The notes under the pieces: generated by a model
What the model was told of the DNA's origin: nothing
The model's database searches: none
What the model saw: the letters and a program-made list of their open reading frames with translations, nothing else
From: Gammaproteobacteria bacterium
GTDB lineage: Bacteria; Pseudomonadota; Gammaproteobacteria; SG8-11
Reading direction: 5' to 3'
Assembly (NCBI GenBank): GCA_024641505.1
Contig: JAHECY010000033.1
Coordinates: 1-40,474 of the forward strand
Length of the DNA stretch: 40,474 bases
Shown: in pieces, positions 15,360-25,638 of the stretch
How the letters are laid out: every line of letters begins with the position of its first letter
How positions within the stretch are numbered: the stretch's first letter is position 1
Position numbers and translations under genes: made by a program

Positions 15360-15731
15360 TGTTCACTCCGAAATGACTGGCAGGAAAGTAGGGAATACTC
15401 CGGAGTTAGCGGCCAATGACACCGATACTTCAACAAATCCGTCTGCAATTTTTGCGAATGTGATCTGGAGCACACTTTTTACCGGAGAGTGCCCTTGGCG
15501 GTGATTTAGACGGGGCGCTACCCCAGCGCAACTGCGCCCTGGTGTTGCAATTTCCAGGAATACCGCCTGCCCCCGATGTATTCCCGAAGGCGCGATACCC
15601 GGCCAGGCAGAATTAATCGGTTCGTAAATTCAGTGAACCAGCATGCTGGTGCGGCGCCCACGAATCGGAAACCGCAAGTGGCAATTTAACATACCGGCCG
15701 ACGTGGCGGTCGGCCGGTCATCCGTCACAGA
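15360..15731. other. Intergenic stretch with a strong GC hairpin
   Basis: Upstream of DUF2789 and downstream of the DUF2846-like lipoprotein. The only clear element is the inverted repeat at 15693-15718 listed separately. I see no open frame worth calling. Confidence 0.5.
15693..15718 (-). terminator. Perfect 10-bp hairpin after the lipoprotein gene
   Basis: ACCGGCCGAC and GTCGGCCGGT flank a 6-base loop, 13 bases after the lipoprotein stop. No T-run follows on the minus strand (ATGTTAAATT), so it could be a weak intrinsic terminator or a 3'-end protecting structure. Confidence 0.5.
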
Positions 15732-16307
15732 CTAAACGCCGGAGTCTTTATTTAACATGGTCTTATCAGCGCCCTTCTGCTCAAATTCCGGTAGATACTT
15801 GTCTTTCTTGGCTTTACTATTGGCGGCGATTTTCTCCGCATAGGCCAAACCTGCCGGCGCCGGCTCCATCGGCTTCATGACCTTAAGCCAGGCATCGATT
15901 TTATCTTTCTCCAGTTGTCCGTTTTGGGGATGGAAACTGAAACGTCCGCCAAAAACCCCGGGCCTGATTTGAACCACCGCATAATAGGTTTTTCCTGCCG
16001 CCAATTCGGCTTCCATAAAATCTGCGCTTTCGCCAATGACCATAAACAAATGCTTTCCAGGCTCCGCTTGATAAGGAATTATGGTCTTGACGGTAGAGGT
16101 CCCCAGGTACTGATCACCGTCATACAGCACCGCCACATTACCATCCCCCAACATACGTGCCGGCCGCAAAAAAACCACCAGCGCCTTACCGGGCTGAGGC
16201 GTGATTGCGACACTCGCATCTTTGATCACCATCATATGAGGTGCTCCACAACCAACCATAATTGAAACAAATATGCTTATCATTAACAACTTTATCGCGA
16301 ATTTCAT
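15732..16307 (-). CDS. DUF2846-like lipoprotein
   Basis: 191 residues with a lipobox (IMVGC, Cys about 20). The central part, KALVVFLRPARMLGDGNVAV then PGKHLFMVIGES and LAAGKTYYAVV, resembles DUF2846-type lipoproteins, whose function is unknown. The C-terminal 60 residues are charged and helical (KIAANSKAKKDKYLPEF). ATG 16307 has GGAG six bases upstream and puts the signal peptide first; the longer frame to 16388 does not. Confidence 0.8.
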   Translation of the reverse strand: MKFAIKLLMISIFVSIMVGCGAPHMMVIKDASVAITPQPGKALVVFLRPARMLGDGNVAVLYDGDQYLGTSTVKTIIPYQAEPGKHLFMVIGESADFMEAELAAGKTYYAVVQIRPGVFGGRFSFHPQNGQLEKDKIDAWLKVMKPMEPAPAGLAYAEKIAANSKAKKDKYLPEFEQKGADKTMLNKDSGV

Positions 16308-20094: not shown

Positions 20095-22689
20095 TCAGCC
20101 GGCGTCCGGCGTGCCGCCACTGAACACAAACCCGTCGGCATTCGCGTCGACCTTGATTACCGACCCCGGACCAAATTCGCCCGCCAGGATGCGCTGCGCC
20201 AATGGATTCTCGATGGACTGCTGAATCGCCCGCTTCAACGGCCGCGCCCCGTACACCGGATCAAAACCCGATGCACCCAGGCGATCCAGCGCCGCAGGCG
20301 TCAGTTGCAGATCCATGTTCCGATCCAATAGACGTTGGCGCAGGAAATCCGTCTGCAAGTTGGCAATGGCGCGTATCTGCGCTTGCACCAGGGGGTGAAA
20401 CACCACGATTTCATCCACCCGATTGATAAACTCCGGCCGGAAGTGTTGCCCCACGATATCCATGACCGCCGCTTTCATGCGCCCGTAATTTTCCTCACCC
20501 GCCATTTCCTGGATCAAATTGGAACCCAGATTGGAGGTCATGATAATTACCGTGTTGCGGAAATTGACGGTGCGGCCATGACCGTCGGTCAAGCGGCCGT
20601 CGTCCAGCACTTGCAGCAGCACATTGAATACATCCGGATGCGCTTTCTCCACTTCATCCAGCAGGATCACGGAATACGGTTTACGACGCACATGTTCCGT
20701 AAGATAGCCGCCCTGCTCATAGCCTACATAGCCGGGAGGCGCGCCGATCAGCCGGGCCACGGAATGCTTTTCCATGAATTCCGACATATCGATGCGCACC
20801 ATGGCATCTTCCGTGTCGAACAGAAAATGCGCCAGAGCCTTGGTCAATTCGGTTTTACCGACACCGGTCGGTCCGAGAAACAAAAACGAGCCACTGGGCC
20901 GATTGGGATCGGACAAACCGGCCCGGGAACGACGGATCGCGTCGGCTACCGCATGGATGGCTTCCTCCTGCCCGACCACACGCTGATGCAGCACATCTTC
21001 CATGCGCAGCAACTTGTCGCGCTCTCCCTCCAGCATTTTGGAGACAGGTATCCCGGTCCATTTGGAAACCACTTCGGCGATTTCTTCTTCGGTGACGCGG
21101 TTGCGCAGCAGGCGGGTCTGCTGAGTTTCGGCGCTGCCGGCTGCCACCAGTTGTTTTTCCAGTTCCGGTATGCGCCCATACTGCAACTCCGACATGCGTG
21201 CCAGATCGCCGGCACGGCGCGCGGTTTCCAAATCCATGTGCGCCCGGTCAAGATTTTCTTTAATAAATTGCGCGCCTTGCAGCGACGCCTTTTCCGCCTT
21301 CCAGACGTCTTCCAGATCGGCAAAATTCCGATCCAGGCGCTGAATTTCTTCTTCCAGGTCTCCCAGGCGTTTCCTGGAGGCCTCATCCTTTTCCTTCTTC
21401 AGGGCCTCGCGTTCGATCTTGTATTGGATCAAACGCCGCTCCAATCGGTCCATTTCCTCCGGTTTGGAATCGATTTCCATGCGAATTCGACTCGCGGCCT
21501 CATCGATCAGATCAATGGCCTTGTCCGGTAATTGCCGGTCGGTGATGTAGCGATGGGACAGCATGGCGGCGCTGACGATGGCCGGATCGGTGATATCGAC
21601 CCCATGGTGCACCTCATATTTCGGTTTCAAACCGCGCAAGATGGCAATGGTATCTTCCACGCTCGGTTCATCCACCTGAACTTTTTGAAAACGGCGTTCC
21701 AGCGCCGCGTCCTTTTCCACGTACTCGCGATACTCGTTCAAGGTGGTGGCGCCGATGCAATGCAGCTCGCCCCGCGCCAGTGCCGGCTTCAACATATTGC
21801 CGGCGTCCATGGCGCCTTCGGCCTTGCCCGCACCCACCATGGTATGCATTTCATCGATAAACAGGATCACCTGCCCTTCCTGTTTGGCGAGATCGTTGAG
21901 TACGCCTTTGAGGCGTTCCTCGAATTCGCCCCGGTATTTGGCGCCGGCGATCAGCGCCCCCATATCCAGGGCCAACAGCCGCTTGTTCTTGATACCCTCG
22001 GGTACCTCACCATTGACGATGCGCAAGGCCAGGCCTTCGACAATAGCGGTTTTGCCCACCCCGGGTTCGCCGATCAATACCGGATTATTCTTGGTGCGCC
22101 GCTGCAACACCTGGATCGTGCGCCGTATTTCGTCATCACGGCCGATAACCGGATCAAGTTTACCCTGCTCCGCCCGCTCCGTAAGATCGATAGTGAAACG
22201 TTGCAGCGCCTGGCGTTGATCTTCGGCATTGGCATCATCCACCTTCTGTCCGCCGCGCATATTGTTGATCGCCAGGTCCAGAGCGCCCTTGGAGGCCCCG
22301 GCTTTACGCATCAGATCGCCGATATTGCCTTTATCGTCCAGGGCGGCGAGCAGAAACAATTCGCTGGAAATGTACTGGTCCTTGCGTTGCTGAGCCAATT
22401 TATCCACCACATTGAACAGGCGGGCCAAATCATTGGAAATATGCACATCACCCGGTTGCCCCCCCTGCACTTTGGGCAAGCGTTCCATGGCCTCGCCCGC
22501 GGCACTGCGCAATTGATTGACATTAACCCCGGCCGACGTCAACAGATGACGCGTGTTGCCCCCATCCTGATCCAACAACGCCACCAACAGATGCACCGGA
22601 TCGATAAACTGATGGTCCCGACCCACCGCCAGACTCTGGGCATCCGCCAGAGCCAGTTGAAACTTACTGGTAAATTTATCCATGCGCAT
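20095..22689 (-). CDS. clpB: ATP-dependent disaggregase ClpB
   Basis: 864 residues. ClpB works with DnaK to rescue aggregated proteins after heat stress. An N-terminal Clp repeat domain at about 1-145, AAA1 with GEPGVGKT and [12 protein letters not shown], the M-domain coiled coil at about 400-525, and AAA2 with GPTGVGKT and [12 protein letters not shown] are intact, followed by the C-terminal D2 small domain. The start [19 protein letters not shown] aligns directly with E. coli MRLDRLT, so ATG 22689 is chosen; the frame extends further only through the promoter region. A heat-shock-type promoter lies about 50 bases upstream. Confidence 0.97.
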
Positions 22690-22737
22690 TTGGAGGAACC
22701 TCTCAGGAATTAAGAACAGTTTAATAATTAACCTAAA

Positions 22738-22765
22738 AAATAGGGCCTTGAGCGTAGGATTCAAG
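22738..22765 (-). promoter_or_regulatory. Sigma32-like promoter of clpB
   Basis: On the minus strand CTTGAAT, 13 bases, then CCCTATTT, close to the RpoH consensus (CTTGAAA, 11-16 bases, CCCCATNT). The implied transcript start is about 42 bases before the clpB ATG. Confidence 0.65.
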
Positions 22766-22769
22766 GCCC
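22743..22769. repeat. Perfect 9-N9-9 inverted repeat overlapping the clpB promoter
   Basis: GGGCCTTGA and TCAAGGCCC flank exactly nine bases. The geometry equals that of the HrcA operator CIRCE, but the sequence differs. On the minus strand a TATTTTTT run follows, so it also resembles an intrinsic terminator. Confidence 0.7.
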
Positions 22770-23021
22770 AGGCCTCGACGCCAGCAAGGAAAATGACCCA
22801 ATTCAGGACGTAACCACCTGGAATTCATCTGAAAAAGTCACTGTTCCCCAGTTCTCACGTCAGGAAATATGATTAAAATACAGCGCTTCCAAGATATTAT
22901 TTGGGGTAAAATTAGCTTTGGTTTCAGTTCCGCACCCGTCGAGTTGGTGCCCACATCCGTCATTACCCCATCGACGAAACCGGCAAATGAACAATGTAGC
23001 AAAATCAAGGGAGACACCTCT

Positions 23022-23699
23022 ATGCGATTACTTCTGGCTGAAGACGACGCTCTGCTGGGTGACGGCATCTGCGTCACCCTGAGTGAAGCCGGGTATGCTA
23101 CCGACTGGGTGACCGACGGAGAGTCCGCGGAAAGCGCTTTGCAGACAGGTGAGTACGAAGCCCTGATCCTGGACCTGGGCCTGCCCCGCAAGTCCGGCAC
23201 CGAGGTGCTGCGTCATTTACGTTCCCGCGGCAGCGATATTCCGGTATTAATCCTGACGGCGCGCGACACTGTGGCCGATCGGGTTTCCGGCCTGGATTCC
23301 GGCGCCGACGATTATCTGGTCAAGCCGTTCGACATGGACGAGCTCGGCGCCCGGTTACGCGCATTGTTGCGTCGCAGTGGCGGCCGCTCCAATCCTATTA
23401 TCGAACATGAACGTATTACCGTCGACCCCGCCTCACACATTGTTACCCTGGAAGGCAGACGCGTCGATATTTCACCGCGGGAATTCGCGGTCCTGCGATT
23501 GCTGCTGGAAAATCGTGGCAAAGTCCTGTCGCGCGCCCGTCTCGAAGAAGGACTCTACTCCTGGGGCGATGAAGTGGAAAGTAACGCGGTGGAAGTCTAT
23601 ATCCACCACCTGCGAAAAAAGCTCGGCGCGGAGTTAATTCGTACCATTCGCGGCGTTGGCTACACCATCGATAAGTCAGGTGATGCCCGACTGAACTGA
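23022..23699 (+). CDS. OmpR-family response regulator, QseB-like
   Basis: 225 residues. Receiver domain with AEDD at the N-terminus, phospho-Asp in LILDLGLPRKSG, Thr in LILTARD and Lys in LVKPFDMDEL; C-terminal winged helix with SPREFAVLRLLLENRGKVLS and RTIRGVGYTI. The sequence is of the QseB/PmrA type. ATG 23022 has GGGAG about eight bases upstream; the frame is open to 22869 but that part looks non-coding. It is divergent from clpB across 332 bases, and its kinase follows after 233 bases. Confidence 0.94.
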   Translation: MRLLLAEDDALLGDGICVTLSEAGYATDWVTDGESAESALQTGEYEALILDLGLPRKSGTEVLRHLRSRGSDIPVLILTARDTVADRVSGLDSGADDYLVKPFDMDELGARLRALLRRSGGRSNPIIEHERITVDPASHIVTLEGRRVDISPREFAVLRLLLENRGKVLSRARLEEGLYSWGDEVESNAVEVYIHHLRKKLGAELIRTIRGVGYTIDKSGDARLN

Positions 23700-23729
23700 T
23701 GTCCGACACCAGGAAACGCCGTAACCCCA

Positions 23730-23770
23730 CCATGCCATCACGGCAGAGCACGGTAATGTGCATGGCATGG
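23730..23770 (+). repeat. Inverted repeat between regulator and kinase
   Basis: CCATGCCAT and ATGGCATGG form a perfect 9-bp stem around 23 bases, in the 233-base gap between the QseB-like and QseC-like genes. No T-run follows, so it is not a canonical terminator; it could be an operator or an RNA structure that sets the regulator:kinase ratio. Confidence 0.5.
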
Positions 23771-23932
23771 GAGCTTAGCAGCCGCCCCGGGGATTAAGCC
23801 AGGACACAGATACTCATGGATGGCGCTCCCAGAATTCTTTATACTAAGCCGCATAATCCCGCCTTCGCGCCGCTCAAGGTGCAATCTGAAGGTTCCTCTC
23901 GGCATGACTTCGGGAAGGTAGGTCGACATATC

Positions 23933-25318
23933 ATGAACCATTCGATCCGCAGACGTCTGCTGGTCGCGCTCTCCGGGGCCATTACCGCCGCCTGGTCTTT
24001 GACTGTAGTCTTCAGCTACGTTGACATTCGTTATGAAGTCACTGAATTGCTGGACGCCCAGCTGGCGCAATCTGCGCGCGCACTGCTGGCGTTTAACACC
24101 ACTTCCCTCGGCGCCTCACCAAGCGAAGCCGGTAGTTCGGAAAAGTCCGAGCAGTTGCCCGTCGCGGCCGAACGCCTGTTCGCGCACCGCTATGAAAACA
24201 AGCTGGCCTTTCAGATCTGGCGTTCCTCCGAGGAACTGGCGCTGCGCTCCCCAAACTCGCCGATGTTTCCCATATCCAGTAAAGAATACGGTTACAGCGA
24301 TGTTGATGTCATGGGCCATTCATGGCGTGTATTCTCCCTGCCTGATGACAACAGCCCGATGATCGTCAAAGTCGGCGAACAATATGAAATCCGCGAAGCC
24401 CTGATCCAGAATATCGCGGTGCGCACCTTGTTACCGCTGGCGTTCGCATTGCCGTTTCTCGGCATGCTGACCTGGTTTGGTGTTGGGCGCGCCTTGAAAC
24501 CACTGGAAAAACTCGCACGACAGGTCCAAAATCGCGCGCCCTCATTTCTCGAACCGGTGGACGACAGTGGCGTCCCCGCTGAAGCGAAACCGCTGGTGGA
24601 TTCCTTGAATAATCTTTTTACCCGACTGGATCTGGCGTTCGAGGGTGAACGTCGTTTCACCGCCGATGCCGCCCATGAATTACGCACCCCCTTGGCCGGC
24701 ATCAAAGCCCAAGCCCAAGTAGCGCTGAAGTCCGGCAATCCTCAAAATCGAGAGAAAGCGCTACACCGGGTGGTTGAAGGCGTGGATCGAGCCACCCATC
24801 TGGTGCATCAATTGCTGACCCTGGCGCGGCTCGACCCGGACAACAGCATGTTTCAAGTGCAGAAGGTCAATCTGCGGGATGTGGCGCATCGGGTGGCCGG
24901 TGATCTGGACGCAATGGCCGCGGACAAACGCATCAAGGTCACCGTCGACATCAAAGACGACGGTGTGATCATGGGACATCCGGACGCGCTGGGGATTCTG
25001 CTGCGCAATCTTGTGGATAACGCCATTCGCTACACACCCGATGGCGGCCGCATCGATATATCCGTACGGCGTCACGAAGGTAATTTGATATTATCCGTTG
25101 CCGACAGCGGCCCGGGAATTCCTCCGGAAGACCGCGAGCAAGTCTTCAAACGCTTCTATCGGCGCCTGGGCACCAAAGCCGCCGGCAGCGGTTTGGGCTT
25201 GTCCATCGTCAGTCGCATCATCGAACTGCATCAGGCAAATATCACCCTGGACACTTCCATCTACCAGGGATTGCAGATCGATGTGATCTTTCGCGCCGAT
25301 AAAACCCAGGAAATTTGA
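23933..25318 (+). CDS. Sensor histidine kinase, QseC-like
   Basis: 461 residues. TM1 at about 9-30, a periplasmic sensor of about 130 residues, TM2 at about 165-185 (LLPLAFALPFLGMLTWFG), HAMP, and a kinase core with the H box AAHELRTPLAGIK, N box LLRNLVDNAIRYTP, G1 DSGPGIPP and G2 GSGLGLSIV. The QseC-type sensor and H box agree with the QseB-like partner upstream. ATG 23933 has GGAAGG about 13 and GTAGG about 9 bases upstream; the longer frame to 23816 lacks a membrane-compatible N-terminus. Confidence 0.93.
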   Translation: MNHSIRRRLLVALSGAITAAWSLTVVFSYVDIRYEVTELLDAQLAQSARALLAFNTTSLGASPSEAGSSEKSEQLPVAAERLFAHRYENKLAFQIWRSSEELALRSPNSPMFPISSKEYGYSDVDVMGHSWRVFSLPDDNSPMIVKVGEQYEIREALIQNIAVRTLLPLAFALPFLGMLTWFGVGRALKPLEKLARQVQNRAPSFLEPVDDSGVPAEAKPLVDSLNNLFTRLDLAFEGERRFTADAAHELRTPLAGIKAQAQVALKSGNPQNREKALHRVVEGVDRATHLVHQLLTLARLDPDNSMFQVQKVNLRDVAHRVAGDLDAMAADKRIKVTVDIKDDGVIMGHPDALGILLRNLVDNAIRYTPDGGRIDISVRRHEGNLILSVADSGPGIPPEDREQVFKRFYRRLGTKAAGSGLGLSIVSRIIELHQANITLDTSIYQGLQIDVIFRADKTQEI

Positions 25319-25638
25319 ACCCGGCGCAGCTAATAGTTTCTACTAAAATCAATGTATTATAGTTAAGGACCTATTAAGTTTTTACCGGTAATTTTAGTCC
25401 TGCAGACCGGCGGAGAAATGTCATCCCCTGTAGTGAAAAACTTCGCGGTTTGTACCCTGTGTTGCTTGTTGCTTTCCTTCCAGAAGATGTTCCAGGAATC
25501 CTCACTCCTGGACCTCCCTATGCCCCATCCCAATGGGGCATTTTTTTCGCCCGTGAATGGGCTGGCCAGGGTCGAGACCTTCGCGCGCAAACATATCATC
25601 TATCTTTGATTCTCAGGCTGTCAGCGACGGCCACGACA
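25319..25638 (+). other. Intergenic stretch, possible small RNA or long 3' UTR
   Basis: 320 bases between the kinase and a convergent gene. A TATTAT box near 25355, several GGA triplets, a CCAGGA/TCCTGG hairpin at about 25490-25510 and the terminator at 25521-25547 would fit a transcript of about 180 bases. A 63-codon plus-strand frame (ATG 25418) lacks a Shine-Dalgarno and reads through the terminator stem, so I do not call it. Confidence 0.35.
25521..25547 (+). terminator. Strong rho-independent terminator
   Basis: A perfect 8-bp stem, TGCCCCAT/ATGGGGCA with loop CCCA, followed at once by T7 on the plus strand. It ends either the regulator/kinase transcript or a small RNA from the preceding 200 bases. 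Confidence 0.88.

Follow-up and report, generated by a model that had tools for sequence, protein, structure and literature searches.

Does the perfect inverted repeat that lies over the promoter of clpB in this gammaproteobacterium have a function of its own, or is it an accident of an ordinary heat-shock promoter? The window, i.e., the whole stretch of 40,474 nucleotides that was analysed, carries clpB on the minus strand (20095–22689, ATG at 22689), and its product is the ATP-dependent disaggregase ClpB, over cut-off for NF008118 and TIGR03346 (NCBIfam score 1531.6 bits, cut-off 1417). At the site, the plus strand reads AAAAAATAGGGCCTTGAGCGTAGGATTCAAGGCCC and the minus strand, that of clpB, reads GGGCCTTGA-ATCCTACGC-TCAAGGCCC-TATTTTTT. 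The strand-neutral repeat, GGGCCTTGA-N9-TCAAGGCCC (22743–22769), has arms at 22743–22751 and 22761–22769 around a loop at 22752–22760; the arms pair without a mismatch, and the pairing goes no further. A T-rich tail, TATTTTTT (22735–22742, minus strand), lies past the repeat, is terminator-like toward clpB and is also part of the −10 element and the start region. The sequence confirms what the original prediction had described, a perfect 9-N9-9 repeat over a good RpoH promoter match and followed by this tail.

The minus-strand sequence ahead of clpB, CCTGGGCCTTGAATCCTACGCTCAAGGCCCTATTTTTTAGG, holds both sigma-32 hexamers: the −35 element CTTGAA (22760–22765) and the −10 element CCCTATTT (22738–22745). 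They are separated by a spacer of 14 nt (CTTGAA-N14-CCCTAT, 22765–22740), the promoter lies 50 nt ahead of clpB, and the inverted repeat overlaps the −35 element, the spacer and the first three −10 bases. This promoter, CTTGAA-N14-CCCTATTT, agrees in hexamers and spacing with the sigma-32 consensus CTTGAA-N13-17-CCCCATNT as given in a passage of PMC4263515. The −35/−10 consensus of RpoH also appears in a portion of PMC9866376, according to which RpoH raises clpB among other genes in Pseudomonas aeruginosa. RpoH itself is encoded in the genome (TIGR02392, 412 bits vs. a cut-off of 323).

Orthologs were compared over 109 distinct clpB upstream regions, gathered from 30 loci of one search (own locus included) and 80 of another, the latter being the best 80 of 577 confirmed stretches. 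Further ClpB matches, listed without loci, were left out, and some of the 109 regions come from close relatives of each other and are not independent. G001, a genome of the same genus (79% complete), yielded no more than a weak match at 31% identity that is not a ClpB, and therefore the nearest kin fall outside the comparison. The sigma-32 scan covered the 140 nt before the clpB start codon with a threshold of 10/12. Regions were compared anchored at the hexamers; a whole-intergenic MAFFT alignment was unusable because region lengths differ and promoters stayed unaligned.

Of the 109 regions (own included, with the best 80 of 577 among them), 98 reach the 10/12 threshold for sigma-32, vs. an average of 1.7 for shuffled sequences. 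In the same sample, best 80 of 577 included, 103 regions match at 9/12, and 6 of the 11 regions below 10/12 are also below 9/12. The distance from the −10 element to the start codon has a median of 41 nt in the ortholog promoters, and those with a spacer of 14 show almost invariant hexamers and spacer and flank positions near base composition (again with the best 80 of 577). The claim of a sigma-32 promoter is strongly supported by this conservation. Like other proteobacterial RpoH promoters of clpB, this one combines the two hexamers, a spacer of 14 and 50 nt to the start codon, a pattern conserved among the orthologs retrieved; unlike them, it carries a chance-like mirror of the −35 element in its spacer. 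Judged from sequence comparison, the promoter itself is an ordinary one, of known kind and common to related bacteria.

The repeat behaves differently from the promoter in this comparison of upstream regions, which the original prediction had proposed: the promoter is conserved, and the repeat is found in the own genome only. Among the 98 sigma-32 promoters (from regions including the best 80 of 577), arms of at least 8 bp occur once, in the own genome; the longest perfect repeat measures 9 bp there, 7 bp in L013 and at most 6 bp in the rest, and ortholog arm lengths are near those of shuffles with the hexamers preserved. Of these 98 promoters, best 80 of 577 included, 1 has the −35 element mirrored (as TCAAG or TTCAA) within the spacer or −10 element, vs. 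1.31 expected. The response regulator gene divergent to clpB (23022–23699, plus strand) is QseB/PmrA-like, below both curated cut-offs, and a related regulator stands beside clpB in three other distinct loci, L012 (= L065), L094 and L041 (best 80 of 577 included), the first of them from the same family, its ClpB being 76% identical across the first 200 residues. No arms of at least 7 bp were found within 330 nt in these three relatives with the same layout, L094 having 20 masked bases at the −35 element. The original prediction had named absence of the repeat from relatives as evidence against itself, and absent it is among the relatives compared, none of which is of the same genus. The repeat may also be a genus-specific or recently acquired element.

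Other copies within the genome, for which a search had likewise been proposed, are lacking: the repeat is unique, with two places within 3 mismatches, no more than a backward-pattern control gives, and the sigma-32 matches before grpE, dnaK and htpX (gene names checked) are without a mirror repeat. An interspersed repeat was rejected, since the 332-nt intergenic region matches the own genome elsewhere only as short pieces (E of at least 2.57). Across genomes, the pattern CTTGAA-N7-9-TCAAG-N0-3-CCCNAT matches 11 of 369 (own included), and the backward-pattern control 2 of 369. By ORF reading and a family scan of three, the ten other matching genomes have one match before grpE, one before dnaK and none before clpB; another lies inside an ORF that precedes an rpoD-like gene (matched by the RpoD model below its cut-off). 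A recurrent promoter-plus-mirror element in the class was rejected: the excess of 11 over 2 is no evidence for the mirror because the control ignores the sigma-32 promoters that are common across these genomes. In L144 (G056) and L138 (G350), sigma-32-like promoters before dnaK and grpE also have a TCAAG mirror in the spacer, which is probably chance, given the number of such promoters.

When the 332-nt intergenic region is shuffled by dinucleotides, 40 of 2000 shuffles contain a perfect repeat with 9-bp arms and a loop of 3–20. The whole 40-kb window contains four perfect repeats with arms of at least 9 bp and a loop of 3–12, vs. 1.50 ± 1.36 in 30 shuffles. Two other perfect repeats lie at 25520–25541 and 15693–15718; one is followed by a T-run between convergent genes and is likely a terminator, and the other lies just past a minus-strand ORF ending at 15732. 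The clpB repeat is unusual at its exact spot and within chance for a feature picked by eye from 40 kb; its position over the promoter is most likely a coincidence, and it most likely has no function of its own.

Starting from the observed sequence, gene identity, promoter conservation and non-conservation of the repeat, we consider it highly probable that the site is an ordinary RpoH (sigma-32) promoter serving clpB, with its −35 element mirrored by chance. RNA polymerase with RpoH would bind CTTGAA and CCCTATTT (22765–22738). The clpB mRNA would begin some 5–8 nt downstream, near 22730–22735, with a predicted leader of about 45 nt and heat induction through RpoH. One arm contains the conserved CTTGAA, the non-conserved spacer would happen to hold its mirror, and an inverted repeat without function of its own would result. 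Against this explanation, a perfect 9-bp repeat at this exact place is improbable for a single promoter (6 of 20,000 simulated random 44-mers with both hexamers fixed).

The adjoining T-run also counts against it, as it completes a terminator shape with a 9-bp hairpin of −16.1 kcal/mol (z −3.05). The element could be an intrinsic terminator or insulator toward clpB, in which minus-strand RNA folds GGGCCTTGA/TCAAGGCCC and stops in TATTTTTT; RNA that arrives from further upstream, or that runs antisense to the divergent regulator, would be halted, leaving clpB under sigma-32 alone. The GC-rich hairpin followed by a T-run is indeed that of an intrinsic terminator; unlike one, it has no co-directional gene upstream and its arms double as promoter. 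The upstream genes point the opposite way, with no recognised co-directional gene, and a search of the minus strand between 22600 and 23100 turned up no sigma-70-like promoter. The own region is among 5 of 109 (best 80 of 577 included) with a terminator-like site toward clpB, vs. 2.5 expected from shuffles, which is no clear enrichment, and the other four sites in that sample lie further upstream, 85–136 nt from the start codon. Being limited to loops of at most 8, a separate terminator scan missed the clpB hairpin. Of the proposed terminator, the hairpin and T-run stand; the shape is absent from relatives with the same layout and not clearly enriched, leaving a weak rival that we regard as unlikely. 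A dual-coded version, a sigma-32 promoter as DNA and a terminator as RNA, would have arisen recently in the genus and would stop upstream or antisense RNA exactly at the clpB start, keeping clpB strictly heat-inducible beside the divergent two-component operon; we give this version little credence.

That operon corresponds to a QseB/QseC-like pair divergent to clpB (23022–25318), below curated cut-offs. The predicted clpB leader also contains a direct repeat, TTAA-N7-TTAA, of 11-bp period (22710–22724), which resembles PmrA/QseB-type boxes and to which the divergent response regulator could bind.

A perfect dyad of 9-N9-9 geometry on the polymerase site would also suit a lineage-specific repressor that covers the −35 element and spacer, CIRCE/HrcA- or HAIR/HspR-like with a sequence of its own. 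We hold this to be very unlikely: the repeat has no second genome copy (the sole other CCTTGA-N9-TCAAGG is in a coding sequence on contig C71) and is absent from the clpB promoters of relatives (best 80 of 577 included), and HrcA, whose operator geometry the original prediction had invoked, has classical CIRCE sites elsewhere. Portions of PMC545781 give the CIRCE consensus and a CIRCE ahead of rpoH in Geobacter sulfurreducens. The CIRCE sequence, TTAGCACTC-N9-GAGTGCTAA, agrees with our arms at 1/9, the best intergenic match is 10/18, and geometry alone agrees. Both stand ahead of a chaperone gene with 9-N9-9 geometry; unlike CIRCE, our repeat is unrelated in sequence, and in this genome CIRCE precedes groEL and rpoH. 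HrcA is encoded (TIGR00331, 321 bits), with CIRCE sites on contigs C204 and C37; an HrcA operator with CIRCE sequence at clpB was rejected on both grounds, the 1/9 arms and the classical sites elsewhere. The CIRCE on C204 is perfect and about 390 nt before groEL, a gap in which we would expect groES. The other, with one mismatch (L131:2553–2579; G000:C37:17052–17078), stops about 37 nt short of the rpoH start, and therefore RpoH itself may be under HrcA control in this gammaproteobacterium. A literature search on HrcA/CIRCE by the exact phrase "upstream of rpoH" found no paper in the library searched.

The half CTTGA also resembles the HAIR half-site CTTGAGT. HAIR, CTTGAGT-N7-ACTCAAG, was found at clpB in Streptomyces albus, according to a section of PMC6102357. 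Our repeat shares CTTGA/TCAAG halves over a clpB promoter; unlike in HAIR, the spacing is 2 bp shorter, and the best HAIR match, 8/14, lies elsewhere in the intergenic region. Three of the four MerR-type proteins were scanned and none is over the HspR cut-off (best 42.4 bits vs. 105); the fourth, outside that scan, is an ORF with a MerR-like domain fused to an apparent receiver domain. The HspR/HAIR reading was rejected on the 8/14 match and on scores far below cut-off for the three MerR-type proteins scanned.

That the clpB leader contains a thermosensor or attenuator at the RNA level, two roles also proposed originally, is extremely improbable even though the repeat folds well as RNA: the predicted start is downstream of both arms, and therefore the hairpin would lie outside the leader; the predicted leader is less stably folded than the majority of its shuffles (−6.3 kcal/mol, z +1.09), and a known RNA family was rejected, with no Rfam match in 22500–23100 at E up to 5.

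Should the terminator reading prove correct, it would mean compact insulation of a stress gene from read-through. For the preferred reading, an ordinary sigma-32 promoter with a chance mirror, the comparison of about a hundred orthologs is what tells a conserved promoter apart from a chance repeat, and a CIRCE-like geometry spotted by eye on a heat-shock promoter need not mean an operator.
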